Below are positions 4,435-55,743 of a DNA stretch of 55,743 nt, in pieces. Origin of the DNA: Rhodobacter capsulatus (GTDB lineage Bacteria > Pseudomonadota > Alphaproteobacteria > Rhodobacterales > Rhodobacteraceae); contig NZ_SWJZ01000010.1 of the NCBI RefSeq assembly GCF_005144475.1, positions 1 through 55,743 of the forward strand. Reading direction: 5' to 3'. The notes below the pieces were generated by a model. The model did no database searches. It saw nothing but the letters and a program-made list of their open reading frames with translations, and was not told where the DNA came from. Made by a program: the position numbers and the translations under genes. How positions within the stretch are numbered: the stretch's first letter is position 1; each line of letters opens with the position of its first letter.

Positions 4435-4497
4435 GGGTCAATTCCTTGTCAAAGGCCGTCCGCATTCCGGGACGCACCGACGGGGGGAAGGGAGGGT

Positions 4498-4517
4498 GGG
4501 GGCGGCGCACCGCCCCC
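4498..4517. promoter_or_regulatory. Intercistronic hairpin between nifD and nifK
   Basis: A perfect 8-bp GC stem (GGGGGCGG with CCGCCCCC, loop CGCA) lies directly behind the nifD stop. No T-tract follows in the transcript direction, so it is more likely an mRNA-stabilising or processing element than a full terminator. Confidence 0.6.
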
Positions 4518-4524
4518 CTTTGGC

Positions 4525-6030: not shown

Positions 6031-6095
6031 TCTTTTGGCTCCCTCACTTCAGGTTTCGAAAAGGTGGGCAGGGCGCCCACCTGAACTGTCAGGCC

Positions 6096-7040
<945 letters not shown>

Positions 7041-18273: not shown

Positions 18274-21025
<2,752 letters not shown>

Positions 21026-21032
21026 GGGACAG

Positions 21033-21380
21033 ATGACCGACACCATCGAAAAGATCGATCCGCTGGTCGATTACATCATGAAGAACTGCCTGTGGCAGTT
21101 CAACTCGCGCGGCTGGGACCGGCTGAAGCAGAATGCCGGGATCCTCAGCCAGACCTGCGAGATCCTCTGCGGCGAGGAGCCGGTGCATGAAACCGCGATG
21201 GACCGCTGCTACTGGGTCGATGCGGTGATCCTGTCGCGCGCCTTCAAGGCCCGCTTCCCCTGGCTCCTGGCCATGACCAAGCCCGAGATCAAGAGCCTGT
21301 TCAAGGCGCTGCACGAGAAGATCGACCATCTCACCGTTCACGGCTCGCTCAATACCGAGCTGACCGTCCCGCATTATTGA
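21033..21380 (+). CDS. anfG: Fe-only nitrogenase delta subunit
   Basis: A 115-residue delta subunit (MTDTIEKIDPLVDYIMKNCL...). Delta subunits occur only in V- and Fe-nitrogenases and bind the alpha subunit near the cofactor. The WQFNSRGWDR and CEILCGEEP segments are family hallmarks. It begins 7 bp after anfD with GAGGGACAG as ribosome site and precedes anfK by 13 bp, the standard order D-G-K. Confidence 0.96.
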   Translation: MTDTIEKIDPLVDYIMKNCLWQFNSRGWDRLKQNAGILSQTCEILCGEEPVHETAMDRCYWVDAVILSRAFKARFPWLLAMTKPEIKSLFKALHEKIDHLTVHGSLNTELTVPHY

Positions 21381-21393
21381 AAGGATCAGACCC

Positions 21394-40092: not shown

Positions 40093-41907
40093 ATGGGTGG
40101 CGAACTGCCGATATGGCTTCACAACTTCGACTCCGAGCAATTCCTGAGGGCTCTGGAACAACAACTGGCTGTTGCTCTGCAACCGATAGTGGATGCCAGC
40201 ACAGGGAGCGTTGTCGCGCACGAGGCATTGATGCGCGGCTTCGACGACCTTGGCTTTCCCAACCCGGGCGCACTGCTGGACAGCGCCGCCGAGCGCAAAC
40301 GGCTGTTCGAAGCCGATTGCTGCGTCATCTCGAAAGCCATGATCGGGAGGGCACATCTGTGTCCGGCAGAAGCCGGGCATCTGTTCCTCAATCTCGATGG
40401 ACGCAATCTGGGGCAGTGGCGGTCCCTGCGCACCTTTCTGGAGTTGCGCTGCGAACAGCTCGGCCTTGGACCGCATGACCTTTGCATCGAGCTGTCCGAA
40501 GCGCATCAGCCGCTTGAGCCGGAAGCCTTCGAAGAAGCCGTCCGTGGTCTGCGCGCCGCAGGGTTCCAGATCGCCATCGACGATTTCGGCACCGGCGTTT
40601 CGGGCATGCAGATGCTCTATCAGGCCGCGCCCGACTTCATCAAGATCGACAAGTTCTTCATCAAGTCGATGCCGAGCGATGCGAAGAAACGGCTGCTTGT
40701 CGGCTCGATCGTGGATCTGGCCCATACGCTGGGTAGCCGGGTGATCGCCGAAGGTGTCGAGACAATCGAGCAACTGATCTGTTGCCGGGACGCCAATTGT
40801 GATCTCGTTCAAGGCTATCTGATCGCGCGTCCCGCGGTCGATCCGAGCGAGCTGGAATCCGGCTATGCGGACCGCATCAATGCCGGTGCCGCGCCCGTCG
40901 AAACCAGCGACGGCCTGATGGTCGACAAGTTCATCGAGGATGTGCCAACCCTGCAGGAAGACACACTGCTTGCGGTCTTCTTCGACCAGCTGACGCGTTA
41001 TCCGGGTCGCAATGTCTATCCGGTGCTTGGTCATGACGGGCTGCCGCGCGGGGCGGTCCGCGAAAGCGACGTGAAGCAGCTGTTGCATTCCCCCTTCGGG
41101 CGGGATCTGGCGCGCAACCGATCGATAGGGATGACGATCCGCGACTTCATTCGGCCGATCCCGACGCTCGAAAGCACCTCGCCGATCGCGCAACGACTTG
41201 ATCTGATTGCTGATCGCGCCGAGGATGGCGTCGTCGTCACGAACGCGCTGCGGTATCGGGGCTACATGTCTTCGGGCGCCCTGCTGAAGCTTGCAAACGA
41301 AGTGCGGTTGCAGCAGGCGACGGCGCAAAATCCTCTTACGCGCCTGCCCGGAAACAGCGCCATTGCCGGATTTCTGGAGCGATGTATGACGCATGTCGCC
41401 GCACCGCGACTGGTCGCCTATATCGACATCGATCATTTCAAACCCTTCAACGACCGCTACGGGTTCGAAATGGGGGATCGGGCGATCCTGATCTTGGCGT
41501 CGATCCTGAAGTCGCTCGAGCGCGATCACGCGGCGTTTGCAGGGCATATCGGCGGCGATGATTTCTTTCTGGGAGCCGACGGCCCGGCCTGCCGCCCTCT
41601 GGCCAGGATCCTCGAAACGATCGGGGAGCGGTTTGGCCATGTCGCCGAAAGTCTCTACAGCCCCGAGGACCGTGCGGCCGGGTTCATCGAAGGCCGCGCA
41701 CGCGACGGAACCTTGACCCGGTTTCCGCTCTTGTCCTGCACCGTTGCTGCGCTGCGGTTGGAGCCAGGATACCGGCCCCAGGCGACGCTTGAACTCACGA
41801 CACGGCTGACCAAATTGAAATCGCTAGCCAGAGAGCGCCAGGCGAGCCTGCAGATGGAAACGCGCGGTCCGGCACCCGACCCGGCCCTTGCGGGCGCGCT
41901 CAGCTAG
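40093..41907 (+). CDS. Cyclic-di-GMP protein, EAL-CBS-GGDEF order
   Basis: A 604-residue cytosolic protein. An EAL phosphodiesterase domain comes first (residues about 15-250) with HEALMRG, FLNLDGR, IDDFGTG, and EGVET and so looks active. Two CBS repeats (about 270-395) follow, then a GGDEF domain (about 410-580) with IDIDHFKPFN and, at 487-491, GGDDF for GGDEF. GGDDF occurs in both active and inactive cyclases. CBS domains usually bind adenine nucleotides. No membrane segments. The order EAL before GGDEF is the less usual one. It stands alone, reading toward the IS element. Confidence 0.9.
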   Translation: MGGELPIWLHNFDSEQFLRALEQQLAVALQPIVDASTGSVVAHEALMRGFDDLGFPNPGALLDSAAERKRLFEADCCVISKAMIGRAHLCPAEAGHLFLNLDGRNLGQWRSLRTFLELRCEQLGLGPHDLCIELSEAHQPLEPEAFEEAVRGLRAAGFQIAIDDFGTGVSGMQMLYQAAPDFIKIDKFFIKSMPSDAKKRLLVGSIVDLAHTLGSRVIAEGVETIEQLICCRDANCDLVQGYLIARPAVDPSELESGYADRINAGAAPVETSDGLMVDKFIEDVPTLQEDTLLAVFFDQLTRYPGRNVYPVLGHDGLPRGAVRESDVKQLLHSPFGRDLARNRSIGMTIRDFIRPIPTLESTSPIAQRLDLIADRAEDGVVVTNALRYRGYMSSGALLKLANEVRLQQATAQNPLTRLPGNSAIAGFLERCMTHVAAPRLVAYIDIDHFKPFNDRYGFEMGDRAILILASILKSLERDHAAFAGHIGGDDFFLGADGPACRPLARILETIGERFGHVAESLYSPEDRAAGFIEGRARDGTLTRFPLLSCTVAALRLEPGYRPQATLELTTRLTKLKSLARERQASLQMETRGPAPDPALAGALS

Positions 41908-42017
41908 TCACGGGAAGGACCCCAAGCACCGTCGTTTCGATGCGGTCCTGATCGGAAAGCGGTCGCCCTGCGGCGTTGAACCGCCCCGGGTTTACCGGAG
42001 GGTGATTTGTTCAACGA

Positions 42018-42925
42018 CTATGCGACCATATCGAGGACGTTCAGGTTTGCATAGAAGGCTTCCTCTGCTTCTGCGGGGGTGATGTATCCGATTGGGCCGA
42101 GCAGGCGGCGGTTGTTATACCAATCGACCCATTTCAGCGTTTCCCACTCGACGTCACGGACCGATTTCTAGGGGCCGAGCTGGTTGATGACCTCCGTTTT
42201 GAAAAGCCCGATGACGCATTCGGCGAGCGCATTATCGTAGGAAACGCCGACCGTCCCGACCGAGGGATCGATGTCGGCCTCCACCAGCCGCTCAGTGTAT
42301 TTGATCGACAGATATTGCGACCCGCGGTCTGAATGATGGATCAGGTCTTTGTTATCAGGCGTTTTTCTTTGCCAGATCGCTTGTTCCAAAGCATCGAGAA
42401 CGAACTGTGTCGTCATCGACGTCGAGGCCCACCACCCTACGATACGGCGCGCAAAGACGTCGATGACGAACGCGACATAGACCGTCCCGGACCACGTCGG
42501 CACGTAGGTGAAATCCGACACCCAAAGCTGATTGGGGCGCTGCGCCGTGAACTGCCGGTTCACCTTGTCGTCCGGGCAGGGCTGCGCGGTGTCAGGGTTC
42601 GTGGTGATGATCTTCTTGCCGCGAACCACGCCCTGGATCCCCAAGACGCGCATCAATCGCTCGACCGTGCATCGGGCGACATCCTCACCGTCGCGGCGCA
42701 GAACATGGCCCGGATCTTTCGCGCGCCGTAGAGCTTGCGGTTTTCTTCCCAAGCTGCGTCGATCTTGAGGCAGAGGGCGGCATCCGACTTGGCCCGGGCA
42801 GACGCCCGGGACGGGTCGCGGGCGATGGCGCGCCGCTCATAGTAGGTCGACGGGGCAATCTGCAGCAGTCTGCACATCGACTCGACCCCGTAAGATCCTC
42901 GGTGTTCGTCAATGAAAGCAGTCAC
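42018..42925 (-). pseudogene. IS3 orfB transposase, frameshift and stop
   Basis: The integrase-type transposase starts with GTGA overlap on orfA (VTAFIDEHRGSYG). A frameshift near 42714 follows LYGARKI, and the next frame resumes HVLRRDGEDVARCTVERLMR. DDE residues are visible in LWVSDFTYV, HHSDRGSQY and NALAECVIG. A TAG at 42168-42170 stands where related proteins have tryptophan (LGPWKSV), then the C-terminal part runs to 42018. Confidence 0.9.
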
Positions 42926-43303
42926 TTGCGAAACGGGCGGTCGAGCTCCGCCATCGCAAAATATGCGGACGCCTTCTTCAGGATCTCGTTGGCCTACCGG
43001 AGCTCGCGAACCTCGCGCTCAAGCTCCTTGATCCGGTTCGGCGGGAAAACGATTCACTGGATCGTTTTCTTATCCGCCTCACTTCTCAGCAGTGGTCGCG
43101 CCCGGCCGTTCGCCGCCATCGCGCTGGACCTGGCGGGCCCAAACACGAAGGCTGTCTGGCGCACAGCCCAATTTGCCTGCGATCGCCGTCAGCGCCGCAG
43201 CTTCGCTCCGATATTCGGCGCGGTGTTCCAAGAGAAGCCGAACCGCGCGTTCACGGAATTCCGGGGAATAAGGCTTCGTGGTCTTCTTCTGTTTCTGTTC
43301 CAT
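42922..43303 (-). pseudogene. IS3 orfA, frameshift and two stops
   Basis: Starts MEQKQKKTTKPYSPEFRERA, the OrfA helix-turn-helix region. After ATTAEK one base shifts the frame near 43082. In the restored frame EADKKTIQ is followed by a TGA (43054-43056) in place of a tryptophan and, after VRELR, by a TAG (42995-42997) in place of glutamine. It ends with RPFRK at 42922. Confidence 0.9.
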
Positions 43304-43354
43304 AACGGGCAAGTCTCCGAGAGTTTTGCCCTCCGGTAAACCCGGGGCGGTTCA

Positions 43355-45017
43355 GCTCGCCTGGACCCCCGAGAACACCGGTGATCGAGAGCATCAGTTC
43401 CGCGGGCAGACCTTCCACGCCAAGGCCGTGAAAGAAACCACGGTGCGCGGGTGTCCGATTTGCCTGCGCCAGGACTCGGAGAGCGCCGACGGTCCCCCCG
43501 CTGAGTCCATGGCCCTCCGCGGCCACTGGATGCTTCGCCCGGCGACCATCTGCCTCCACCACCGCCATCCGCTCGTTCCGCTCTGACAGGAAGCGGAACC
43601 GGTGCGCCGATATGACACTGCCGCGCGTTTCGCCGAAATTGCCGAGGCCGTGCTATCGGGCTCGTTGGACAGACCTTTGCGGGATGCGTCCCCGTTCGAG
43701 CATTGGTTCGAGACGCGCCTGGCAATCGAGCACGATTCTCAGGGCAACTGGCTGGATCAGTTTTCGCTCTACCCGGCCGCGCATTTCTGTGAGCTGCTGG
43801 GACGCGCAGCCTTTGCGACCAAAATCCCGAAATGGAAAAAGATGCCACCGGAGCGGCTCTGGTGCTGTTTTGATCTCGGATACACCTTCGCCAGCAAGGG
43901 CGAGGAACATATCCGCGATGCCCTCTCGCAGCTGCAGCAGCTGATCGGAACACCGACAGACGGTCCAAAGAAGAAGTTCGGTGACCTCTATGACAGGCTC
44001 GCGCACGATCTTACGGGAGAGGATTACCGTCCCTTTCGCGATCTGTTGCGCGACCACATCGCGACGACATGGCCACTTGGGCCGGGCGACGCCTTGATGG
44101 GCGAACCTGTCCTTGAGCGCCGAGTGCATTCCGTTCTGACGGCTGCGCGCGAAACCGGAATCGATGCGCGGCGGCTGCGCAAGCTTTTGTCCGAGGCGGG
44201 CTGGGTCAAGCCTGCCGGCGAAGGTCGCGAAGACGCCTGGGAGCTGTTCGATGCCGTCGCGGCCGCACCGTTTCTGCAGTCACTCGGATCCGGGGTGAAT
44301 GCCCCGGAATTGCGTGAGAAGCTCTCGATCTCACGGTCACAGTTCGACCTGCTGCGACAGGACGGATATTTTGCGCCGACCCTGGGCGGGGACGGGCACA
44401 AGCCGCTTTGGGATATTCAGGCCGGGCGATCTTTCATCGATGGCTTGCTGACTGGCGCCACACCGATTTACGTACCCATGCATGACTGGAGCGATATTGC
44501 GTCGGCTGCGCAGCGCCTGAAGATCCGCCCCGGGCAGATCGTCAGCATGATCGAGGGCCGGAAGCTGACACGGGTTGGAAAGCACCTCGGGCGTGACGGG
44601 TATGCGGCGATTCTGGTGGATGTCGCCGAGGTCGAACGCAGGCTGGAACGACCGGAGGCCAAGGGGCTGAGCATCGAGTTGTTCGCAAAGACCGCCGGGT
44701 TGCGCCATCGCACGGCGATGAGGCTGGTCCGGGACGGTCACGTTCCGACGACCGAAGGCATGAACCCGAAGACGAAGGCGAAGCAACGTTTCCTCTCGCC
44801 CGCCGACATCGATGCCTTCCATCGTCGCTTCGTGACGCTCCGCCACCTCGCCGCACTTCTCGGGCTTTCTTGGCAATCCCTGCGCACAATTCTGAAAGAC
44901 GCCAGCGTCGCCCCATTTGCTCCGGATGGCGAAGATATCGGCGCGATCTTCGAGTGGGAGGTGATCGAGAAGCTGTTCTGTTGCAGGTGGCCCACACCAA
45001 TAAGGCGAGTTCCCTGA
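43355..45017 (+). pseudogene. tniQ: TniQ-family protein, N-terminus lost at the IS, one nonsense codon
   Basis: The frame reads out of the IS with HQFRGQTFHAKAVKETTVRGCPICLRQD and later HWMLRPATICLHHRHPLVPL (positions 43395-43583), the zinc-ribbon part of TniQ/TnsD (C-x2-C ... C-x2-H). A TGA at 43584-43586 interrupts it and the same frame goes on for 470 residues to 45017. Its C-terminus has the same layout as the intact TniQ at 45417-47267 (RFLSPADIDAFHRRFVTLRH against RLSPVDVELFAKTYVSLRR). About 85-90 N-terminal residues are missing. It converges on the intact tni operon. Confidence 0.85.
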
Positions 45018-45166
45018 ACGGGCCTGAGGAGACAGGAGGCGGAAGTTCTCGATGAACTTCTGCGCCACCTATCCCCTTGTAATAAAATCTTATATTGAGG
45101 CGAGCACATAGCAAGAGACTGCGAGAATGCCGCTTCTGGCTACCTGCCCACCTCGAATTTGCCGAG

Positions 45167-45340
45167 TTTGCGCACGCTTCTAGATTTTATTTGCGCACGC
45201 TATTCCCTTATCTGGCTGCTGTCTCGACCGACTAAATTTTTCCTTTTGCCAAAACCTAACCCATTGAAATATATAAATACACCCCTGCCCCCGACCAACG
45301 ATCTGGCCTTTTTGTAGGCTAAATTTTTCCTTTGGCAAAT
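45167..45340. repeat. Direct repeats, candidate transposon-end binding sites
   Basis: TTTGCGCACGCT occurs at 45167 and 45190 (23 bp apart) and CTAAATTTTTCCTTT at 45232 and 45319 (87 bp apart), all in one orientation. The stretch is A+T-rich compared with its surroundings. Short direct repeats behind tniQ are what the end of a Tn7/Tn5053-type element looks like (transposase binding sites). I could not find the matching inverted set on the other side. The gap 45018-45416 holds no gene. Confidence 0.5.
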
Positions 45341-45364
45341 TCCCTGCCCGGTCGGCCGTTGGCA

Positions 45365-45392
45365 ACAAAAAAGCCGCCCGGAAGGGCGGCTT
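45365..45392 (-). terminator. Terminator after tniQ
   Basis: GCCGCCC-GGAA-GGGCGGC with a six-T run on the minus strand, 24 bp past the tniQ stop. The hairpin and about 35 bp beyond it recur at 24909-24990. Confidence 0.9.
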
Positions 45393-45416
45393 CAGGAAGA
45401 GTTTGCTCGGCAGGCG

Positions 45417-47267
45417 CTACATCAGGCCGTAAATCCCGGGAGGCAGATCACGACGGCGATAAAGCTCCACGCCAAGTTCCATCGGATCGACGATCGGCTG
45501 GCATCCCTGATCGGACAGCTTTTTTACCAGGGTATTCCTGCTGATCTGGGTCTCACGCGACAACCGCCGCAGGGACACATAGGTCTTTGCGAACAGCTCG
45601 ACGTCGACCGGTGACAATCGGGGCTGCCCGGTCGAGGAAACCTCATGGACCCGAAGCCGCGTCACACCGACCGCGCCGTCGATCAAACGCAAGATCACGG
45701 GGCTGGGGATGTCGAGACTCATGCTGACCGCCGAAAGAGAGAGCGTCTTGACAGGGACATCGGGGGTCGTGGCGGTGACGATCTCGGCGGGATCGAGGTG
45801 AAGCGCATAGCAGCCAAAGACGTCCCGCAGGCGCACCACCCGCTTCAGTTTCCCTTCGAGGATCATGCGATAAATGCCGTCGGTGCTGACGCGAGTCTTT
45901 TGCGCGGCAACATCGATGCTGACCCACCCTTCGGGGACATCGTCGACGTCACGGGCACGATCCCGAAGCTTGGCGAGGAACGCGTCGGCGTCGGGCGCCA
46001 GGACCTGGGCGCCATATTTGTGCTGGGCACTGAGTTTCAGGTCGATTTGCGGCAAGATCCCTGCGGAAATCAGCTGCCGCACCTGCCCGCGCGAGGCGTT
46101 GATGTAGCCGGGAAGACGAACGATCGGGATCGCTTGGAGGACCGGTTGGACAATCCTGTTGGCCTCCACCGCATCGAAGGTTCCACCGGTGCGGGCTGCC
46201 GTGTCGTCGACGAGGCCGTGGGACACCAGCAGGCTGCGCAGCGTACTCGCATGCAGCTTGGTCTCGGCCGCGAGCGACGCGATGCTGTGCCGCCGCCGGG
46301 TCACGACGACCTCGCCGCAAACAGGCTTGCCCGGGGCGACTTCGCTCGTATCGAGAATGTATTCCCGCACCGCATGGCGAATGGGCCCGGGATCCTTGCG
46401 GTTCTTCGAGAACTGAAGCCATTGGTAGAGACGCCCGAACCGCTGCTGCGGGCCTGCCTTGCGGCTCAGCTTGCCAGGGGAGCGGCTGCGTTCCTCGACA
46501 AGGCCAAGGGCCTCGCGAATGCCCATCTCGCCGCGGGCGACGAACGGAAAGCCCGCTTCGGCCGCCTCGTCCCAATCCTTCGGGCTGAGGAGATCCAGAT
46601 TGGGCTTCGTCCCGAAGGCGAGGATCACCCCCAACATTTCGGTCGCCCGCGCCGCCTGATCGATGCGCTGCCCGTCGAGCCAGTCGGGGCCTGTGCGCCC
46701 CTCGAGCCGGTCGATGACATAGCGTTGCAACATCGCCGGTTTGCGCGCTTGCAGGCTGTCGCGCAGGGCTTCGAGTTGGGCGCCGGTCTCGGGCACGATC
46801 AGCGCCATCTGGCGCGCGCGATCCAGCCAATCGGTTTTCGGACGATCGATCAGCGGCAACTCGTGATCCGGGCACACGCGGATGGGCCGCAAGAGCCAAA
46901 GCAGACGACCGCGACGGTGCAGCCGGCTGTTTCCGCGGGCATCGTCCTCCAGCAGGCAGGCCGGGCAAAAGCCGGTGTCCGACCCGCGCAAGAATTCCGC
47001 CATGAAGATCTCGCCGCGCAACATGTAGCGCCGCCATTCCAGGGTGCGCATGGCATTGCGCACCAACTGTGCCGGGTCGTGGCCGGTACGCTCCGCGAGA
47101 AGGTCGATCGCCGCATCCGTCGCCTTGTCGAGATCATCAAGCGGCAATCCGATATCGTTCAGGAACGGCACCAGGCTCTCGCCCGTGTGCAGGGCCGCAA
47201 GCCGCGTGGCCCAGGACATCAGGGTTTCATCTGCGGCAATCGGCAGGAAAGGCACGAGATGGCTCAT
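45417..47267 (-). CDS. tniQ: TniQ/TnsD-family target-site protein
   Basis: A 616-residue protein beginning MSHLVPFLPIAADETLMSWA. The N-terminal TniQ domain (residues 1-150) has the zinc-ribbon ligands C101-x2-C104 and C132-x2-H135 with LLWLLRPIRVCPDHELPL. The rest holds several helix-turn-helix-like segments (for example VAAQKTRVSTDGIYRMILEG). TniQ/TnsD proteins bind the target DNA and call in the TniB/TnsC ATPase. It overlaps tniB by ATGA and ends the operon with a terminator. Its length puts it nearer TnsD than short TniQ, which suggests sequence-specific targeting. Confidence 0.9.
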   Translation of the reverse strand: MSHLVPFLPIAADETLMSWATRLAALHTGESLVPFLNDIGLPLDDLDKATDAAIDLLAERTGHDPAQLVRNAMRTLEWRRYMLRGEIFMAEFLRGSDTGFCPACLLEDDARGNSRLHRRGRLLWLLRPIRVCPDHELPLIDRPKTDWLDRARQMALIVPETGAQLEALRDSLQARKPAMLQRYVIDRLEGRTGPDWLDGQRIDQAARATEMLGVILAFGTKPNLDLLSPKDWDEAAEAGFPFVARGEMGIREALGLVEERSRSPGKLSRKAGPQQRFGRLYQWLQFSKNRKDPGPIRHAVREYILDTSEVAPGKPVCGEVVVTRRRHSIASLAAETKLHASTLRSLLVSHGLVDDTAARTGGTFDAVEANRIVQPVLQAIPIVRLPGYINASRGQVRQLISAGILPQIDLKLSAQHKYGAQVLAPDADAFLAKLRDRARDVDDVPEGWVSIDVAAQKTRVSTDGIYRMILEGKLKRVVRLRDVFGCYALHLDPAEIVTATTPDVPVKTLSLSAVSMSLDIPSPVILRLIDGAVGVTRLRVHEVSSTGQPRLSPVDVELFAKTYVSLRRLSRETQISRNTLVKKLSDQGCQPIVDPMELGVELYRRRDLPPGIYGLM

Positions 47268-48226
47268 TTTTTCAGCTTCCATTGCCGGGGGTCGGTGCCT
47301 TCGGTCAAATCGATGCTGGCCCATTTGATGGCCAGGAACGGGTTGCAGTCGGGGCCCTTGCTCTCGACCGCCGCCCACGCCTCGGCGAAGTGCGCCAACG
47401 TCAGGCGATCGTCGCCATGGCGCAACGCTTCCTCGATCGTATTGAGGGTGTTTTCGATGCACATCCCGAACCGATACCGGCTGGCGTAGATCAACCGGGG
47501 CACGACATCGACCTCGGGCGGGGCGATATCCGCACAGCGGCAGAAATCGACGATCAACTGCTGCAGCTTGTCGCCCTCCGTCGGCGCCGTCACCGGGGAC
47601 AATTCAAGCTTGGCGAAACGACGGTTTTTCTGGCCCTCGAAGGCCACGATCTCATGCAGGATCGGGATGCCGGACAAGAGCAAGATCACCGGCGGATCCG
47701 CCTCGAGAAGCGACTTGAAGGCGCACAGGATATCCATGATCTCTTCGACCGACCCGTTCGAGCGCAGATCGTGCGCCTCATCGATCAGCAGCACCACGAC
47801 ACCAAGGGCGGCAAGGCGGTGGCGCACGAGCCGCCAGATGCTCCAGCGTTCGCGCCGCTCGGAAACATCGGGGTAACCGCTCACGCGCAGGATTTCGCAG
47901 CCAAGGGCCTTGAGGGTGGCGGGGCTCGGAACGGTGACGGCGAGGTAGCGCGGGCCACCCGGGGCGCCGAGCCCGAGCGCGGGGTGGGTCTTCAGGACGT
48001 GATCGATGATGGTGGACTTGCCGTCGCCGGGATGGCCGGTGACGACGATCCCACGGGCCTCCCGACCGCCACTGAACCGCACGGGAACGGCAATGGGGGC
48101 GCCGTCCGCATTGCGGCGCAACAGGCGGTCGATTTCGTGGCGCACCTCCGCGTCCCGATGGGTGGTCACGAACTTGTGGCGCAAGATTTCAAGGATGTTG
48201 TCGATCTCGAATTCGGACTTGAGCAT
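47264..48226 (-). CDS. tniB: TniB/TnsC-family AAA+ ATPase
   Basis: A 320-residue transposition regulator ATPase. Walker A is TGHPGDGKST and Walker B VVLLIDEAHDL. Sensor-1 is in LLLSGIPIL. I chose ATG 48226 (MLKSEFEIDNIL), with GAGG seven bases ahead; another ATG is 12 bp upstream. It transmits the target signal from TniQ to the TniA transposase. It lies 87 bp behind tniA and overlaps tniQ. Confidence 0.92.
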   Translation of the reverse strand: MLKSEFEIDNILEILRHKFVTTHRDAEVRHEIDRLLRRNADGAPIAVPVRFSGGREARGIVVTGHPGDGKSTIIDHVLKTHPALGLGAPGGPRYLAVTVPSPATLKALGCEILRVSGYPDVSERRERWSIWRLVRHRLAALGVVVLLIDEAHDLRSNGSVEEIMDILCAFKSLLEADPPVILLLSGIPILHEIVAFEGQKNRRFAKLELSPVTAPTEGDKLQQLIVDFCRCADIAPPEVDVVPRLIYASRYRFGMCIENTLNTIEEALRHGDDRLTLAHFAEAWAAVESKGPDCNPFLAIKWASIDLTEGTDPRQWKLKK

Positions 48227-48313
48227 TTTCGGCCTCATTTCTGCAGGGGGACTTCGGACCGCGTGACGCGGCCCCGATGACAAGCGGCCGCCCTGGGGTG
48301 GCCGCGAAAAGGG

Positions 48314-50491
48314 TCAATCCTCGACGCCCCAGGCATCGTTTTTCTTGCTGCGCGAACGCCCTTTCTTGACCGTGGGGGCGGCAACCTCGGGTTCGGCCGC
48401 CTCGGCAGACGCGTCCGGCACGATCCTGAGCCCAACCCCATCTTCGGCCTGTGCCGTGGCGGGGGCCTCGGACGTCTCGGACACCGAGAACCCCACGAAC
48501 AGGCTCTCCTCAAGACGCGCCAGCGCCGCCTCTTCCCAGACCTCGGTCACCAGCCTTGCGCGCTGGCGGGCAGTCGCATTCAGCTGCTTGATGTCCGCGA
48601 TCGCCTTGCGAACGACCGTCTGGGAAACCTCCTGGCGCTTGTGCTGCGCCAGACGCAGTCGGCTGGAGCTTTCGAGCCATTCGGCCGCGCTGACCCCGGC
48701 AAATCCGTCGAACACGGCCGGAACCTTGATCCACTGGTCCGCCTTGACCCAGATCGCGCCGAGATCACGCGGATGCCAGCGGACCTCCACCTGCCGGTCG
48801 GAAGTCTTGCGGTTGAGGGCGCGGCTGTGCAGGGCGAATTTGGCAAGCGCCTTGCTGTGATACCGCACGCCGAGGACCGTGATCCCGTCCCCCTCGAGCT
48901 TGCGCGTCAGCGGGCGCGCGAAGATCTGTGCCTGCTTTTCCGGCCCCGGCGCAGCGCGCACGCCGTATTCCTCCATCGCCTTGTTCCAGGCCTCGATCGG
49001 CGTATCCCCCCCAAGCCCTTCGTGCGGCTGGTTGTGGTAGATGTCGACCGCCCAGCGAACGAGCGCATAAGCGAATTCGTCGGCGCTGAGCACGCCCTCC
49101 TTCACAGAGTCATTCTCGCCGCGCAGGATCACGTTGGAGAAGGTGCGACCCGTCAGACGCGGCAACAAGCTGAGGTTCATGGAGCGGAAGACCCGCTCGA
49201 TCGCACCCCGCAGATGCGGAACGCCGTTCACCGCGATCTCGAACGGAACATCGAGTGCCGCGCAGGTTTTCCGGAACTCATCCGCCTTGAACGCGGAGCC
49301 GCCGTCGGTCACCAGGCGCTCCGGCAGACCGAAAAAGTCCCAACCGGTCAGGGCCCCGACCGCATCGGCGTAGCCGCCCTTGTCGTTCACGCACATCTCG
49401 AGACATTCGATCGCCGAGAAGCGGCTCGGGCTTTTCGAAAGACGCATGCCGACGATGACCCGCGTCGCTGCGCAGATGGCGACGGTGATCCACCAGCGGC
49501 CCTTCTTTCCTTCGAGCCCAAGGCGCTTGCGCTCCTCTTCGCTGAAGCGGTCGAGCAAGCCGTTGTCCCGGAACAAGGTGATCAGATCGACCTTGTTCTC
49601 GTCCATTTCGACCACTTGCAGCGGGCGAACCAAATCACGCGTCTGCCCACGGCCCGTCTGGCGCAACTTGCGCAGCGCCGCGTCACGTCCTTCCCGCGCA
49701 ACCATGACCAGGAACGGATCGAGGCGGTCGATCGCTGCGGAAACGGTGTTGCGACAAGGCACGCGGAACGGCTTGAGCCCCTCGGCCACCCGCTGTTCGT
49801 TCATCGTTGCGACGGTGGCTTTCAAATCCTCATGGATCGCCTTTTTCGTAAGGCGATCCGTCGTGAGGTATCCCATCACCGCGTCGTTGAGGGCGCGGCG
49901 CACTTCCAGGTTCAGTTGATCGAAGCGCGAGCCGGATTTGTAGCTCCGGTCGGAAAGCCCGACGCGACCGAATTGCTTGTACGCCGCGATCCAGCGACGC
50001 AAGCTGCGCGGCGAGAATTTTTCAGGGCTTTCCTTGGTCTTGCTGTCCTGCGGCTGTGCGACCTTGCAGTAAAAGGCCTTCGCCTCCTCCTTGATTTCGA
50101 GCCGGTGCGCCTCGATCCCGTCGTCCGTCAGAGTCAAACGGATCTTGCCGAATTCCTTTTTCTGGCGACGGCGCAGGAGATCGACCGCAAGAACGATGCT
50201 CTCGCGAAAGCGGATCCGGTCGTCGTGAGCACCGGAATCCCACACCAGCGGCGCGCTCTTTTCCTCCTCCTGAGGGCGTCCCTGCTGATTCACGAAGTAG
50301 TTGAGCTTCACCTCGAACCGATTGTGGCGGTTCAGGTTGAGAAGCTCGTCATGCGTATAGGTTTGCGCCAATCCCCCTTCGAGCGGCGCCAAAACGAGCC
50401 CCTCGGAATTGCGGAAAACCATTTTGTGCGGCTTATTGTCGATCAGACACAGGTCTTCCTCGAAGCAGCGGATGCGGAACGGGGCGGTCAT
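48314..50491 (-). CDS. tniA: TniA/TnsB-family DDE transposase
   Basis: A 725-residue transposase of the Mu/Tn7 (rve) superfamily. Catalytic residues are D297 (QVVEMDENK), D396 (LVTDGGSAF) and E432 (GAIERVFR), a D,D(35)E spacing. N-terminal helix-turn-helix DNA-binding segments lie at 150-250 and the Mu-C type beta-barrel after 560. It joins transposon ends to target. The ATG at 50491 overlaps the tnsA stop (ATGA). A longer reading exists upstream in this frame but runs through tnsA. Confidence 0.93.
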   Translation of the reverse strand: MTAPFRIRCFEEDLCLIDNKPHKMVFRNSEGLVLAPLEGGLAQTYTHDELLNLNRHNRFEVKLNYFVNQQGRPQEEEKSAPLVWDSGAHDDRIRFRESIVLAVDLLRRRQKKEFGKIRLTLTDDGIEAHRLEIKEEAKAFYCKVAQPQDSKTKESPEKFSPRSLRRWIAAYKQFGRVGLSDRSYKSGSRFDQLNLEVRRALNDAVMGYLTTDRLTKKAIHEDLKATVATMNEQRVAEGLKPFRVPCRNTVSAAIDRLDPFLVMVAREGRDAALRKLRQTGRGQTRDLVRPLQVVEMDENKVDLITLFRDNGLLDRFSEEERKRLGLEGKKGRWWITVAICAATRVIVGMRLSKSPSRFSAIECLEMCVNDKGGYADAVGALTGWDFFGLPERLVTDGGSAFKADEFRKTCAALDVPFEIAVNGVPHLRGAIERVFRSMNLSLLPRLTGRTFSNVILRGENDSVKEGVLSADEFAYALVRWAVDIYHNQPHEGLGGDTPIEAWNKAMEEYGVRAAPGPEKQAQIFARPLTRKLEGDGITVLGVRYHSKALAKFALHSRALNRKTSDRQVEVRWHPRDLGAIWVKADQWIKVPAVFDGFAGVSAAEWLESSSRLRLAQHKRQEVSQTVVRKAIADIKQLNATARQRARLVTEVWEEAALARLEESLFVGFSVSETSEAPATAQAEDGVGLRIVPDASAEAAEPEVAAPTVKKGRSRSKKNDAWGVED

Positions 50492-51165
50492 TGTGACACC
50501 CCCGTCTTGCGCACGAAGGATTTCCCGCAGATGCGCTGATGCTCGCAAAGCGTGATCTCGCGCTTGCCGATCTTGCGCACCAGCGCCCGCATGCCGCGCG
50601 AACCAAGACCGATGCAGCGGGTCATGTCCGCAAGCGTGCTGGCGCCGATCAATTGCCCGATCACCGCCTCGGCGGCCAGATCCGCTTCCGCGTCCGCGCC
50701 GCGCATGGCGTAGATCGTCTCGGCATTGAACCGGCTGATGGCATCGAGGCCTTCGTCCGTCAGGAGCCGCACCTCGTCGAAGGTGCCCCCGATCTGCGCC
50801 GCGATCTGCGAAAGCTCGTTCACCACCCGCCCGCTTTCGAGACGGATCACCGGCTTGACCTCGCAAGCGATACGCCGGCCATCCGTGGTCACGATGACGA
50901 AATCGAAATACTTTTCGACGCGTTCGCTCGCATCGTTCACCCACATGAAGAGCACCTGCTCCTCGAGGGTCTGCACCCAGGGCAGCGTGAGAAGATAGAT
51001 CGCCCAGACGAACTCGAGGTGGCTCTCGGTCACGATGATGCGGCCATTTTCGCCATCGGGCACCACGGTCTGACCGCAGAAATGCTGGGTCGAGGCCACG
51101 GAGACTTTGCGTTTGGCAACCGACCGCTTGGGCGGGTTGTATTCGGGTCCGGTATAGACAGACAT
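50488..51165 (-). CDS. tnsA: TnsA-family endonuclease
   Basis: A 225-residue restriction-type nuclease (PD-(D/E)xK). Active-site residues are E47/E51 in TESHLEFVW, D88 in YFDFVIV and E102-x-K104 in CEVKP. TnsA cuts the 5' strands of the transposon ends and, with the DDE transposase, gives cut-and-paste movement. It lies first in the operon and overlaps tniA. AGGAACCTGAAAG precedes the ATG. The C-terminal 90 residues form a helical domain that normally binds TnsC. Confidence 0.9.
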   Translation of the reverse strand: MSVYTGPEYNPPKRSVAKRKVSVASTQHFCGQTVVPDGENGRIIVTESHLEFVWAIYLLTLPWVQTLEEQVLFMWVNDASERVEKYFDFVIVTTDGRRIACEVKPVIRLESGRVVNELSQIAAQIGGTFDEVRLLTDEGLDAISRFNAETIYAMRGADAEADLAAEAVIGQLIGASTLADMTRCIGLGSRGMRALVRKIGKREITLCEHQRICGKSFVRKTGVSQ

Positions 51166-52371
51166 CTTTCAGGTTCCTGTTCTGAAGCTTGGGGGACACG
51201 CCCTGGTCGGACGCGTCGGTCTCGGCTGGCCGCTGCGGCGGCACGTGACAGGCGACCCATGCGACAGGCATGCGGGGAGACACCTCCGGCCGCGAATTTC
51301 GCGCGCCGAGAGCGGGTCTCGAGCTTGTCGGGGTCAGGTTTGAGAGGGACCGATGCCGGGCAGTTCCTTGCAGCGAACCGCAGGATCTGCTATGAACCAG
51401 ATATCAGGTCTGGTGGGCTTCGGCCTTCCACATCACGTCCACGTCGGGATGCGCCAACATCCCGGCGTTTTCGTTTTCAGGGGTCGGGATCAGGTCATTT
51501 GCGTCTCCATTGGGGCTGCGAGGAACGGTCAGAGTCATAGCGCGGAAGCTCAAAAAAACGAAAGAAGTCGTTATTTTTCATGAGCTTGGAGAGTTTTTGA
51601 TCTTTCTCTCTGTTTTTCGCATCGCGCGTCATTTTCCGCTCCTCAGGTTTTGTGTCCGACCGTCTGCGCTGCACTACCGGCGGCATCCCGAAGCGGGATG
51701 CGCGGCTCCTGAACCGGGTCGGAGGGGGGTACCGAGGGTTTGCGAATTCCGGATCCCGTAACGGGCGGTCATCACAAAGTTCCGGTGGTCAGGCGGCAAG
51801 GGCGCTTTCCGTGACGGTTCTTTCGAGCCCTGAACGCCCGATTTTGAGGGCGTGATTCGGCTGCGAAACGTCGGTCAGGAAAGCATCGATGCGAGACAAA
51901 ACCCCACGTCCGATCCGGAAAGGATCAGCGTATGAGCCGGGAGGCGGCGAGGGGGTTATGCGTGTTCTGGTTCATCATGGGAGATGAGATAGGGGACAAA
52001 TTACGGGTAGATCAAGGGGGGTGTTGCGGGTCGGACCGATGTGGGGTCACCGCAACGGTCGGATTTTCTTGCCATTTCCCGCCGTTCAGGGGGCTTGACA
52101 GGGAAGCTCCGGCTCTTCATTACCATTTCAGATCCGGAACCGATGCCGCCGAAAAGCGCATGTGCTGTCGGATTTGGTTCTGAGCCCCCCGAAAAATTTT
52201 TTTCGTCAAAGTGCGTGATCGCGCTTTTGGACGCCATTTTTCTGGTCCCGGAGAGGGTTTTTCCAATTTCCACCGCTGCACGACTGATCTTGACGCCGGT
52301 CTCCGGCCGCGCGCGCAGAGGACGTCCGGTGTTGCCGCAGGCAAGGGATACCCCAAAGCCGCACAGGGACG
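51166..52371. other. 1.2-kb stretch without a supported gene
   Basis: No reading frame here looks like protein on either strand. It holds a palindromic CCAGA-N7-TCTGG (51393-51409 region), an A+T-rich segment at 51540-51650 with an imperfect AAGCTCA...TGAGCTT hairpin, and GAAAAATTTTTTTC at 52189-52202. The promoter of the tnsA operon must be in its left part. One transposon end may lie here too. Base composition is lower in G+C than the flanks. Confidence 0.5.
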
Positions 52372-52881
52372 TCAAGCCCAGCCCCCGAGGTCTGGAATGT
52401 CGAAACGCCGAGCGCCCGACCGCAAGCGGCCCTCTGCGAGCAGTGCGGTAAAAACGGATTGATCGGGGCGGCCGAGCCGGTAATAGCGCGAAAATGTGCG
52501 TGCCCACCCCTGATCGGAGGCGATGCGAACAAGGGGCGAGGTGACTGTGCGTGCGCCCTGCCGCAACCGGGGATGGCCCGTGACGAGGCCGACAAGCACT
52601 GGCAGATCTTCAACGACCACGCCACACCAGCGTTCGATGCAGGGCGCGGTCTCAAGCGCGGACAGATCCGGCACCGCTCCGGCAAGACTGTCGATGTGAT
52701 CGCAAAGATCGAAGATATCTTGCCGCAGAATCGCGGCGAACGGACAGGTGCCGTTCAGCAGCCGATGTGTCCGCACCAACGGCGTGATGCCTGGATCAGA
52801 CTCTGTCAGCGCGCCGCCCCGCAGGCCGTCGGTGACATATTGGAGCGGGCGCAGCGGGTCGGCGATGTCGTCCGGCGTCAT
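52372..52881 (-). CDS. Unknown 169-residue protein, partner of the AAA+ gene
   Basis: A protein beginning MTPDDIADPLRPLQYVTDGL. It has two Cys (CPFAAI and CIERWC) and a conserved-looking ITPLVRTHRLLNGTCPFAAI segment; I do not recognise it. AAGGAGG ahead of the ATG is strong. It lies 45 bp behind the AAA+ gene and reads in the same direction, so it is probably translated from the same message. Mixed helix composition, no signal peptide or membrane helix. Confidence 0.6.
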   Translation of the reverse strand: MTPDDIADPLRPLQYVTDGLRGGALTESDPGITPLVRTHRLLNGTCPFAAILRQDIFDLCDHIDSLAGAVPDLSALETAPCIERWCGVVVEDLPVLVGLVTGHPRLRQGARTVTSPLVRIASDQGWARTFSRYYRLGRPDQSVFTALLAEGRLRSGARRFDIPDLGGWA

Positions 52882-52926
52882 ACGGGGCCTCCTTGCTTTT
52901 GCAAATGTGCGAAAAACTGCGCCAGT

Positions 52927-53943
52927 TCAGTGATGCCGGGGCCGATGAGCGTAGCCGCTGACCACCGCGACCCAGGCCAGCAAGTTGCGAAGGCTCAGGC
53001 CCTGGCCAGCGAGGACAGCCAGATGGGCACGACCGTCAGCAACGGTATCCACATCGTCGATGTCGGCAGTCATGCGGTCGTAAAGCCGCAACAGATCCGG
53101 CAGTCCCGGCTCCGGCACATGGATCACACGACACCGATCTTGCAGCGGCGCAGGGACGCCGCGAAGGTCATTCGCGGTCAAGATCCAGCTGATGTTGGAG
53201 ACATCGATCCGCACCCGGTGGACCGGGCACTCATAATGCGTCGCAGTCCCGGGATCGAGCACTTCGAGCAGGCTCGTTGCGATGGACGTACTCATGCCGC
53301 GATCGCTGTAGACAACGCCCGACTTGTCGATTTCATCCACGAGCATCAGCGGGTTGGCCACACGCGTCGCTAACAGGGTCTCGACGGGTACGCTGGGCGT
53401 GGCGCTGCCCCAGCCCCGTTCCACGCCGCCGACACGGAAGCCCGAAGACCCCGACCCGACGTCGATCCGCCTGAGCGGTACGCCAGCAAACTCTGCGAGC
53501 CGGCGAGCATAATGACTCTTGCCGCAGCCCGGGCTGCCAACGAGCAGCATCGGGGGCAGGCGCAGCCCTTTGCGGCCATTGGAGAGAGCGGCCAACAACT
53601 GCTGCTGGATCGCCGCAGAAACTGCCGCTATCCATGGCGCTTCGGCATGCAACGCCGCAACCAGCTCATCGACTTCATGCGCGGTCTGCGGGCCCAGAAT
53701 GCGCGCGCCCTCGCGCGCAAGACGACGGAGCGGCTCGCGTTGCTCGGGCCTCAGCGTAAGAAAGCCGGGCACGCCGGCGAGCTTGCGTTTAACGCAGGCT
53801 TCGATGCGAGTCTGGACACGGTTTCCCGCAAAATACGCCATGTTGCCGTGACGCGCGCGCCAGCGTTTGCGCAGCGCATCTATCACTTCGGCGGCGTCTG
53901 CGACGCCAAGCAAAGGCGAGACGATATCGATCCTTTCGGTCAT
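52927..53943 (-). CDS. Lon-like AAA+ ATPase without protease domain
   Basis: A 338-residue AAA+ protein. Walker A is GSPGCGKS (136-143), Walker B LVDEIDK (D203-E204), followed by TSLLEVLDP as in Lon proteases, sensor-1 N258 in LTANDL and an arginine finger near R270. There is no Ser-Lys protease domain; the protein ends soon after the small lid. The N-terminal 115 residues are helical and unlike Lon. GGAGGGAG precedes the ATG at 53943. It pairs with the 169-residue protein and sits next to a Tn7-like operon, so cargo is likely. Confidence 0.8.
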   Translation of the reverse strand: MTERIDIVSPLLGVADAAEVIDALRKRWRARHGNMAYFAGNRVQTRIEACVKRKLAGVPGFLTLRPEQREPLRRLAREGARILGPQTAHEVDELVAALHAEAPWIAAVSAAIQQQLLAALSNGRKGLRLPPMLLVGSPGCGKSHYARRLAEFAGVPLRRIDVGSGSSGFRVGGVERGWGSATPSVPVETLLATRVANPLMLVDEIDKSGVVYSDRGMSTSIATSLLEVLDPGTATHYECPVHRVRIDVSNISWILTANDLRGVPAPLQDRCRVIHVPEPGLPDLLRLYDRMTADIDDVDTVADGRAHLAVLAGQGLSLRNLLAWVAVVSGYAHRPRHH

Positions 53944-54580
53944 CGGGCTCCCTCCGACACCTCGGCGCAATGGCGCGAAGGACGGCGAATGCCCCGGCTG
54001 CCAGGGGGGCACGACGAGGGCGGCGGATATGCGCGGTCAAGCCCGCGAGCGGGGGACTTCAGGCAGGACATGATATGCTCCAGTCATGCGACCACGACCG
54101 ACGAAGATCGGTCGGAGCGCTGGTTGAGGCGGTGCGAAAACTGCCAGCGCAGCTTCGCGGGGTCAGAGATATGCGTGCGGGCGGCCAGACCACGACCAAC
54201 CGTTCAAGGTCAGTGCGGCAAGGCCTCATGGATGGATTCGGAGAGCTTTGATGAGGTGATGGTGGCCCAAGAGACGGCTCGAGTCAATACTAAGGTATTG
54301 ACTTAAAAAGGAAATGCGAAAAAATGAACCGCGTGGCGTTTATCTCGCTGTGGGGTGGCAGCGTCCAATGCCGGGCACCGCCTTCCCCGCTCCGATCCCG
54401 GCAATGCGAAAATGTGGCGGCGCGATTCATGCCCGGGACATCCGCGATGCGAAAAGAGCCGTCGCGCGTGGCTTCTGGCCGGGGACCCGCCCCATGCCGC
54501 CCCCGCCCCGCGCCGAAACAGGTGACAACGCCGCCTCTCGCCGCCATGATCAGCACCGGGCATCGGGAAGGAGAGAGAAG
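53944..54580. other. 637-bp gap with a palindrome and short repeats
   Basis: Holds GTCAATAC-TAAG-GTATTGAC at 54283-54302 (perfect 8-bp arms) and three copies of ATGCGAAAA at 54314, 54404 and 54447. Short frames exist on the plus strand, for example one ending SESFDEVMVAQETARVNTKV at 54236-54306, but none is convincing. The promoter of the AAA+ operon lies at its left side. Confidence 0.5.
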
Positions 54581-55195
54581 GTGTTTTCGCAACGCAAGGT
54601 CGCGCAACTCCTCGTCAGGCTGATCGAAATCGACCCGCCGATCTGGCGCCGATTGCTCGTCCCGTCGGACTGGACCCTTGCCAAGCTCCACCGCGTTCTG
54701 CAGGCGGCCTTCGGTTGGACCGATGCGCATCTGCACGAATTCCACATCGGCGGGCTGCGCTATGGCGATCCGGATCTGCTGGATGATGGCTTCGACGGCC
54801 CTCGGGTTTTTGACTATGCCGATGTGCGCCTTCTCGATTTTCTGGGCCAGCCCGATGCGGTCTTCGTCTACGTCTATGATTTCGGCGACAACTGGCAGCA
54901 TGAAATTCGGATCGAAGCCTGGCCCGAGGTCGAGACCGCCCCGAAACAGGCGCAGTGCCTTGACGGTGCCCGGGCGCGCCCGCCCGAAGATGTCGGCGGA
55001 CCTTGGTCCTATGGCGACTTTCTGGAAGTGATCCGCGATCCCGAACACGACGATCACGCGTCGAACCTCCGCTGGGCGGGCGGGCATTTCGACCCGGAGT
55101 GGTTCGATCTCGAGGTGATCAACAAGGACCTGCGCAACGCGATGCGCTCCAACGCTGCGCGGCGCCTGCATCAGCCGAAGCCGAAGAAGGGGTAA
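54581..55195 (+). CDS. Plasmid pRiA4b ORF-3 family protein
   Basis: A 204-residue protein of the pRiA4b ORF-3/IS1096 TnpR-like family with the hallmark stretch IDPPIWRRLLVPSDWTLAKL, then HEFHIGGLRYG and YDFGDNWQHEIRIE. Members are common on plasmids and near transposons; no function is known. I chose the GTG at 54581 with GGAAGGAGAG before it, because family similarity begins at once; an open frame extends upstream but looks non-coding. It seems complete. Confidence 0.85.
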   Translation: MFSQRKVAQLLVRLIEIDPPIWRRLLVPSDWTLAKLHRVLQAAFGWTDAHLHEFHIGGLRYGDPDLLDDGFDGPRVFDYADVRLLDFLGQPDAVFVYVYDFGDNWQHEIRIEAWPEVETAPKQAQCLDGARARPPEDVGGPWSYGDFLEVIRDPEHDDHASNLRWAGGHFDPEWFDLEVINKDLRNAMRSNAARRLHQPKPKKG

Positions 55196-55743
55196 GGATA
55201 TTTGCCGCGGCAGGCGCCCGGCTTCAAAGAAATTGTGGGCTCAATGGGCAAGTTCAACGAGCGAAGGCGACCCGTGCGGTTGCGCCATTGAGACCGCAGA
55301 ACCCGCCCTCTGCGAAGGCGACGGCTTGATCCTCACGCTCGGCCGAGGCTGTCGGTCGGCTTCGAGTTACGCTACGTGGCCGCATAACCCAAAGCCGCCC
55401 TTTGCCCGCAGTTGCAGCAAAACTCGGTCAAGTCTAGTAGTAATGCGGCACAAAGCAGACGCTCACCTTCGGAGGAACGAAGAATCCGCTACCTATGGGC
55501 ACCGTAGGGACAGCATCCGGCCGAACACTTGGCCTCATTCTTGTGCTTGAGCGCGAGATAGTCTTCGATAGTCTAATCTGAGTCAGCGACAGGTCGCTAG
55601 GTTGGCGGGAAATAATTTTGGCGCTACAAAATATCAGAATAGGCGATCTCGTCGGACTTACCAGGCTGCTGAAGAAGTCGTCGTCTCGGAACAGTTTTCT
55701 TTCGGCGCAACCTGCTGCGTTTGGTTTTGGCTCCATCGACGCA
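55196..55743. other. Right end of the window without a supported gene
   Basis: No protein-like frame is seen. The last 90 bp, from GGCTGCTGAAGAAGTCGTCG (55661 on), look like the terminal region of an IS1182- or IS5-type element, but the transposase would be outside the window, so this is only a suspicion. The part before is unremarkable. Confidence 0.4.

Follow-up and report, generated by a model that had tools for sequence, protein, structure and literature searches.

What is a Lon-type ATPase without a protease domain doing beside the core genes of a Tn7-like transposon? The question is raised by a stretch of 55,743 nucleotides from Rhodobacter capsulatus (contig NZ_SWJZ01000010.1; hereafter the window). 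A preliminary description of this DNA had marked positions 52372-53943 as a two-gene unit composed of such an ATPase and an unknown 169-residue protein, possibly an undescribed system carried as cargo, and had named co-occurrence, island context and structure prediction as checks. The coordinates and reading frames of the pair are as given there, and the underlying observation is confirmed; its first interpretation is partly supported, and the job of the ATPase is something that we infer. Our first choice for this job is that of a transposon-borne protein remodeller, with a defence module as the main rival.

The ATPase gene occupies 52927..53943 on the minus strand (ATG at 53943, stop ending at 52927, ribosome site GGAGGG) and encodes 338 amino acids, classified through Pfam (AAA, E = 3.1e-11), NCBIfam and the predicted structure as a Lon-type AAA+ protein without a protease domain. 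It contains GSPGCGKS and LVDEIDK, which we take to be Walker A and Walker B, as well as Asn258 at the presumed sensor-1 place, Arg319 (in 'SLR') at the presumed sensor-2 place, and Arg270 within a Lon-like 'PLQDRCRVI' segment. Across 28 aligned ATPases, G136, G139, G141, K142, D203, E204, N258, R270 and R319 are all invariant; the Walker A/B, sensor-1 and Arg270 residues are invariant also in an alignment of 38 sequences, where Arg319 is nearly so. The LLEVLDP segment aligns with LLEVLDP of the same genome's own Lon, and these residues together bear out the complete nucleotide motifs and the Lon likeness reported earlier. The reported lack of a protease held as well: the NCBIfam lon model (TIGR00763) covers residues 124-277 only (E = 1.3e-22), scoring 80.1 bits where the cut-off is 608, the protein ends at residue 338, and Pfam at E = 1 gave neither a protease match nor a LON-domain match. 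The Pfam match to TniB was below the cut-off (E = 0.024).

A structure model of the ATPase, computed from the 38 aligned sequences, has a mean pLDDT of 92.5. Its top PDB match in Foldseek was human LONP1 (7krz; E = 1.4e-16 over 332 columns, TM 0.63, rmsd 8.3), all 50 best PDB matches listed were Lon proteases or Lon fragments, and a profile search of the PDB with the ATPase retrieved Lon at E = 4e-31. Approximately 135 residues lie ahead of Walker A and are predicted to be helical; in the model, five helices at residues 17-121 take the place of the Lon helical bundle, followed by the AAA+ core and lid, after which the protein ends (the last helix stops at residue 333). Judged by sequence and model, the protein is related to the Lon ATPase, with a predicted bundle, AAA+ core and lid, and without the protease or the N-terminal Lon domain. 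Trp178, invariant in the 38 ATPases, stands opposite the Tyr that the genome's own Lon has in its RRTYIGSMPG stretch, taken by us to be pore loop 1. The predicted Lon fold and Trp178 point to a motor that would pull on proteins without having a protease of its own.

The companion gene (52372..52881, minus strand; ATG at 52881, stop ending at 52372) lies 45 bp behind the ATPase stop and has the ribosome site AAGGAGG, in agreement with the strong ribosome site and close spacing noted before. Its 169-residue product, previously listed as unknown, belongs to the DUF6634 family (Pfam PF20339, E = 1.2e-9; 38.6 bits against a cut-off of 27). We found no paper on this family in the literature searched, which lacks most subscription papers. 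The DUF6634 model, with a beta-rich core and a mean pLDDT of 64.6, had no PDB match at E = 0.001; the best one, DNMT1 RFTS, reached E = 0.013 and was rejected as not confident, and the best match of the sequence to PDB sequences had an E of 0.51. On PADLOC the DUF6634 protein gave zero matches and the ATPase gave only a 27-residue P-loop match to IetA (16.9 bits), with no full-length defence family, so that the family searches named no known system.

Co-occurrence was assessed in 244 genomes of the order, calling the ATPase at E < 1e-20 (Lon itself scores around 1e-17), DUF6634 at E = 0.001 and TnsB at E = 1e-30. The ATPase family is present in 43 of these genomes and DUF6634 in 24 (21 above the cut-off), and the two occur together in 16, where chance would give 4.2 (Fisher p = 1.6e-8); 10 genomes have DUF6634 together with TnsB, against 6.1 expected (p = 0.05). 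A further set of named loci, the best 79 of 542 candidates, partly overlaps these genomes. Among these best 79 of 542, DUF6634 neighbours the ATPase at 8 loci, a calcineurin-like phosphoesterase at 14 and both at 4. The pairing of ATPase and DUF6634 is real; the ATPase has two partners, DUF6634 and the phosphoesterase, both of them optional. The pair thus recurs as the idea of a two-gene unit implied, but given these 8 and 14 loci that term is too narrow for the family. The phosphoesterase of one locus (L144) matched nothing at 0.01 among PDB sequences. An apparent clean fusion of ATPase and DUF6634 on plasmid pTAV3 was not counted, its ATPase tail being off-family and reading like a frameshift. 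The same genome as the window holds two more DUF6634 genes, at 9310-9945 of locus L036 (G000:C125:6000-25000) and at G000:C23:101570-101854. The former is 69% identical and lies behind a remnant of the ATPase C-terminus; a type I restriction subunit and a YgjP-like gene were seen nearby.

That a Tn7-like core adjoins the pair, as first described, was verified by Pfam matches for three of its genes. On the minus strand the window encodes a TniQ/TnsD-like target selector (45417..47267; TniQ, E = 3.1e-18), a TnsC/TniB-like AAA+ regulator (47264..48283; AAA_22, 1.3e-13; TniB, 3.1e-13), a TnsB-like transposase (48314..50524; Mu-transpos_C, 6.6e-8; rve, 1.3e-7) and a TnsA-like endonuclease (50488..51165). 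The last had only an NCBIfam match (TnsA_like_Actin, E = 0.093) and none in Pfam; with a profile built in this analysis it was recovered beside tnsB in relatives, and its position, too, fits TnsA. Convergent with tniQ lies a second TniQ-like gene (43372..45017, plus strand, recognised by profile matches), which is broken by an in-frame TGA at 43584, the matches falling on frames 43272-43583 and 43587-45014 in the same frame. It is bounded by an insertion sequence (41960..43371), which we take to be of IS3 type, with 43-nt terminal inverted repeats (81% complementary) and an internal ALIL pseudoknot; no target duplication of 4-5 bp was found around it. This insertion sequence occupies the expected place of the transposon left end.

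On the far side of the ATPase, five TGCGAAAA octamers (54133..54591; at 54133, 54315, 54405, 54448 and 54584, minus strand) form a cluster that we consider a candidate transposase-binding array and a candidate right end, the sole candidate for an end of this element; the motif, which was picked for counting after being seen as a repeat, occurs 8 times in the whole window against 2.14 expected and a maximum of 6 in 100 shuffles. The left end was not found in the window, and no pair of ends was found there; the two sides of the element have in common only a few words of 12 and 13 bases, and repeats 5' of tnsA are weak. A search for RNA families at 41000-55743 returned none beyond the insertion-sequence pseudoknot, a tRNA search of the window returned none, the genome's own nrdJ lies on a different contig, and the contig of the window stops at 55743. 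With its second tniQ-like gene broken and its left end not found, the window element is damaged. Between DUF6634 and tnsA there is an interval of 1.2 kb without a clear large gene; a 45-codon frame in it (51495-51632, minus strand), whose ATG is preceded by the ribosome-site-like AGGAGCGG, is possibly a small gene. Elsewhere in the window we noted by eye two gene sets resembling nitrogenase genes (2896-7013 and 18445-22776) and a RuBisCO-like large subunit (12339-13760).

The position of the ATPase relative to transposon ends is seen in relatives. The gene caller, being trained on GC-rich genes, misses genes of such islands, and the maps described here are built from open frames and profiles. 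One genome (G206:C27) holds a complete Tn7-like element of about 23.1 kb (7995-31135), in the order nrdJ, AACAG, TGT-end, ATPase, cargo, tnsA-tnsB-tnsC-tniQ, ACA-end, AACAG; the TGT-end is its right end and the ACA-end its left. Behind nrdJ, AACAG is followed by TGTAGGACCC; after tniQ the sequence runs GGTGTCCGACA-AACAG-TGTG-TGTAGGACCC and on to a second ATPase, the left-end side having CCGACA and then the second AACAG copy. The upstream stretches of both ATPases, behind nrdJ and behind tniQ, are common from TGTAGGACCCACC onward. Terminal TGT/ACA ends and a 5-bp target duplication are thus both present in G206. In a second relative (G016:C4) the sequences before the ATPase and after tniQ are inverted copies with 19 bp identical, and in a third (G138:C1) inverted matches of 15 bp (100%) and 18 bp (94%) lie before the ATPase and behind tniQ, with no match between the flanking 5 bp of the two sides. 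Island context therefore places the ATPase inside Tn7-like ends in three relatives, where we show it to be the first gene inside the target-facing end, transcribed inward, with cargo and tnsA-tnsB-tnsC-tniQ behind it.

In other elements the ATPase lies directly before tnsA (L139, L145, L153, L168, L172 and L189 among the best 79 of 542, plus L105), which is the arrangement of the window but for DUF6634; a search around five of these elements at E = 0.05 revealed no inverted ends. Tandem ATPases around tns cores occur in G206 and L172. A gene that is first inside the end or directly before tnsA does not look like chance cargo; of the earlier cargo proposal the adjacency to the core stands. The analysis brought no direct support for a defence or maintenance module.

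The sequence upstream of the ATPase is informative as well. Among the best 79 of 542 loci, the ATPase lies right behind nrdJ or tRNA-Arg at 34. The gene nrdJ, called by Pfam ribonucleotide reductase and presumably of the vitamin-B12 type, is next upstream within 700 bp at 25 of them, with 62-433 bp between the open frames, and tRNA-Arg at 9 (TCT at 5, CCT at 4). The rest of these best 79 have a same-strand tniQ or tnsC end (7), a divergent tniQ (1), a phosphoesterase (3), tRNA-Gln (1), a second ATPase piece (1), no recognised feature (28) or too short a contig (4). Genes for tRNAs in general are known Tn7-like targets, according to the accessible part of PMC11406308. Within 200 bp after nrdJ at the 25 loci (best 79 of 542), the TnsB-site-like TG[ATG]CCAT, counted together with its complement, is present in 29 copies against 2.6 expected, a statistic that ignores kinship and concerns a motif chosen, like the LexA box discussed below, after sight of some of the same loci. 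It is present at 14 of the 25 and absent at 11; control windows had 5 in 71.

The ATPase stands behind nrdJ at 2 of 30 nrdJ loci picked regardless of it (three of which, L256, L277 and L279, have less than 1.1 kb of downstream DNA), indicating that the nrdJ neighbourhood was acquired and not inherited. Among these control loci the motif count is 3 for the 2 that have the ATPase and likewise 3 for the other 28, and at L263 and L265, at least, an end-like sequence was seen by eye behind nrdJ with no ATPase within 1.5 kb. A short palindrome (GGTTCCGGAACC, GGCTCCGGAGCC) was noticed by eye about 100 nt before the ATPase start at L053, L055, L057, L059, L060, L061 and L070; its copies show changes in both halves, and it could serve as an operator or form an RNA hairpin.

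How tight is the link to Tn7-like transposons? Among the 244 genomes, 62 have TnsB at E = 1e-30, and 21 of these also have the ATPase, against 10.9 expected; 41 of the 62 are without the ATPase, and 22 of the 43 ATPase genomes are without TnsB at this threshold. Any Tns/TniQ gene was present within the fetched flanks (at most 10 kb per side) at 23 of the best 79 of 542 loci, and at the 25 nrdJ loci of that set only at L124, as TniQ alone. With so few tns genes in view, the transposon link of most single loci depends on the site and the end-like motif. TnsB is on the ATPase strand at 11 of the 12 TnsB-holding loci (best 79 of 542), the exception being L122, the locus most like the window, where ATPase and tns genes are divergently oriented; at L158, TnsA is on the opposite strand. 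Within 40 kb in the order's genomes, window included, 10 of 12 ATPase-TnsB pairs have the same strand, and the two opposite-strand pairs are more than 25 kb apart.

In a phylogeny built from 68 TnsB proteins (L129 being too short to include), the label 'ATPase-linked' has to change no fewer than 11 times, with 9 of these changes forced; shuffles gave 17.4, and 'not linked' includes contigs that end early. Linkage to the ATPase is clustered on the tree, but across several clades. A universal core gene of one TnsB clade was rejected as a description, given the at least 11 changes and the 41 of 62 TnsB genomes without the ATPase. Outside the chromosomes, four plasmid copies had no convincing Tn7 gene within 12 kb, and one of them is among defence genes: on pMARC5, a 36-kb plasmid of Paracoccus marcusii (L206), we saw the ATPase relative among DISARM drmA and a ubiquitin-like operon, with no Tns/TniQ profile match in the 24.6 kb fetched. 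Viral contigs gave 5 matches, one strong (39% identity, L201) and four weak. As to database labels, CP070278.1 (246192, Dysgonomonadaceae) and NZ_CP066788.1 (246197, Martelella) contain the same match, one label probably being wrong, and the 321862-base contig of Nocardioides marinus DP1N28-1 (L187) recurs as G143:C5, from the window's order, so that its species label looks wrong.

The ATPase looks like an accessory transposon gene and not like stray cargo. We put at roughly 40% the probability that it is an accessory gene of Rhodobacteraceae Tn7-like transposons that remodels a complex that matters to the transposon. The protein would assemble into a hexamer and, by threading or pulling on proteins, would remodel or disassemble a transposon-relevant protein complex; DUF6634 and the phosphoesterase, judged by adjacency only, may be optional adaptors or partners. 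ClpX, a host protein whose domains differ from those of the Lon-type ATPase, disassembles Mu transposition complexes. Because ClpX acts in this way on Mu, and a like action has been hypothesised for a CRISPR-associated Tn7-like system, the likeliest substrate would be the TnsB/TnsC complex left on DNA after insertion.

The accessible part of PMC12326709 reports that ClpX raises insertion by a Tn7-like CRISPR transposase (a four-fold mean at three sites), that loss of clpX in E. coli lowers a phage-propagation readout about 200-fold, and that ClpX is hypothesised to disassemble the post-transposition complex of a CRISPR-associated Tn7-like element. A genome-wide E. coli screen for VchCAST did not find ClpX, its authors suggesting redundancy with Lon among the named factors (PMC12757027, available excerpt), and the need for an unfoldase is accordingly not general. 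We would go further only tentatively, in supposing that several Tn7-like lineages took up a stripped Lon motor for post-transposition disassembly and were so freed from host ClpX, with DUF6634 and the phosphoesterase as adaptors or end-processing partners. The remodeller reading is favoured by the enclosing ends, the upstream sites, the nrdJ control, the place directly before tnsA, the TnsB-site motif, the common strand, the Lon fold, Trp178 and the ClpX literature; against it stand the TnsB genomes without the ATPase and the ATPase genomes without TnsB, the end-like sequences behind nrdJ with no ATPase close by, the loci without Tns genes, the spread of the linkage over the TnsB tree, the strands at L122 and L158, the nrdJ loci without the motif, the five elements without inverted ends, the 28 loci with no recognised upstream feature, the unmatched 5 bp in G138, the ends of the window element, the plasmid copies and the VchCAST screen.

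The main rival is a defence or abortive module carried as cargo, in which the Lon-type motor, with DUF6634 and/or the phosphoesterase, would sense phage or plasmids and act against them, its place at the end being a habit of cargo. Such a module, which we think somewhat improbable, would suit the varying partners (DUF6634 at 8 and the phosphoesterase at 14 of the best 79 of 542 loci), the plasmid copy that is surrounded by DISARM drmA and ubiquitin-like genes and has no match to a Tns profile within 12 kb, the ATPase remnant near a type I restriction subunit in the same genome, and the defence cargo that Tn7-like elements often carry (PMC8649781, accessible part). It fits less well with PADLOC family matches limited to the short P-loop, with the failure of Pfam to find a nuclease or toxin domain in either protein of the window, or with the location of the gene, which in three elements comes first behind the target-proximal end and in others immediately precedes tnsA, an unusual position for cargo. 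A role in maintenance or regulation appears unlikely; here the ATPase would control when or where the transposon moves (for example, immunity of tandem elements or mobilisation induced by DNA damage), without dismantling anything. GTTCN7GTTC, which we take to be the alphaproteobacterial LexA site, occurs near the ATPase start at 13 of the best 79 of 542 loci against 3/129 controls, though these are groups of near relatives and the p value of 3e-4 ignores kinship; in the window the boxes number 3 against 1.5 expected (13447, 48074 and 48710), none near the ATPase. LexA sites of GTTC and GAAC type are described in the accessible text of PMC6473078. G206 and L172, where tandem ATPases flank a tns core, can be read as a sign of such a role, but tandem insertions suggest that immunity is not strict, and TnsC already serves as the element's AAA+ regulator.

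Two further explanations would sever the functional tie to the transposon. The window unit might simply adjoin the Tn7-like core and have no working link to it, being an island that was there before the transposon arrived, as the 1.2 kb without a clear large gene between DUF6634 and tnsA, the failure to find a left end and the candidate status of the right end would allow; this is improbable, since relatives keep the order and orientation of ATPase, then tnsA-tnsB-tnsC, and the TGCGAAAA cluster lies outside the ATPase and not between it and tnsA. Most improbable of all is that the ATPase gene is itself a part of the chromosomal target site, with transposons merely inserting alongside. The 62-433 bp between nrdJ and the ATPase frame at 25 of the best 79 of 542 loci would agree with this, but it is contradicted by the ends that enclose the ATPase in three elements (with the 5-bp duplication in G206) and by the nrdJ control, in which 28 of 30 loci lack the ATPase; among the best 79 of 542 the gene moreover occurs next to nrdJ, next to tRNA-Arg genes of two kinds, and after tnsC or tniQ.

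The way in which Tn7-like insertion complexes come off DNA is of practical concern: supplying ClpX increases CRISPR-guided Tn7-like insertion in human cells but is toxic there (PMC12326709, accessible part). If the remodeller reading is true, a transposon-encoded motor without a protease would answer this need naturally and might serve as a tool; the ATPase would add an accessory gene to Tn7-like elements, and nrdJ and tRNA-Arg would be Rhodobacteraceae target sites. We found no description of the ATPase as a Tn7-like accessory gene in the literature covered, which lacks most subscription papers, and term searches of the accessible portions of PMC8649781, PMC10293859 and PMC11406308 turned up no such ATPase.

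Several known systems resemble the ATPase in part. Lon protease has in common with it the Lon-type AAA+ motifs (LLEVLDP) and the predicted helical bundle; unlike the ATPase, Lon has C-terminal protease and N-terminal LON domains and a pore-loop Tyr where the ATPase has Trp, and is not carried by a transposon. The anti-phage ATPase IetA/IteA has P-loop residues in common with it and none outside those 27 residues, and no peptidase is found among the 8 window proteins searched with Pfam. TnsC, TniB and MuB are likewise AAA+ proteins encoded by the same element, but the window has a separate TnsC (47264-48283) and the Lon-type ATPase is closer to Lon. TnsE and TnsF, compared by description from the accessible parts of PMC8649781 and PMC10293859, are, like the ATPase, accessory genes of some Tn7-like families only, yet they are target selectors, in contrast to the role proposed here. 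The closest functional parallel would be ClpX acting on the post-transposition complexes of Mu and of CRISPR-associated Tn7-like elements. The proposed job is in common, that of an AAA+ unfoldase by which transposase is removed from DNA (PMC12326709, accessible part); ClpX is encoded by the host, whereas the ATPase, with its putative unfoldase activity, is related to Lon and encoded by the element itself.
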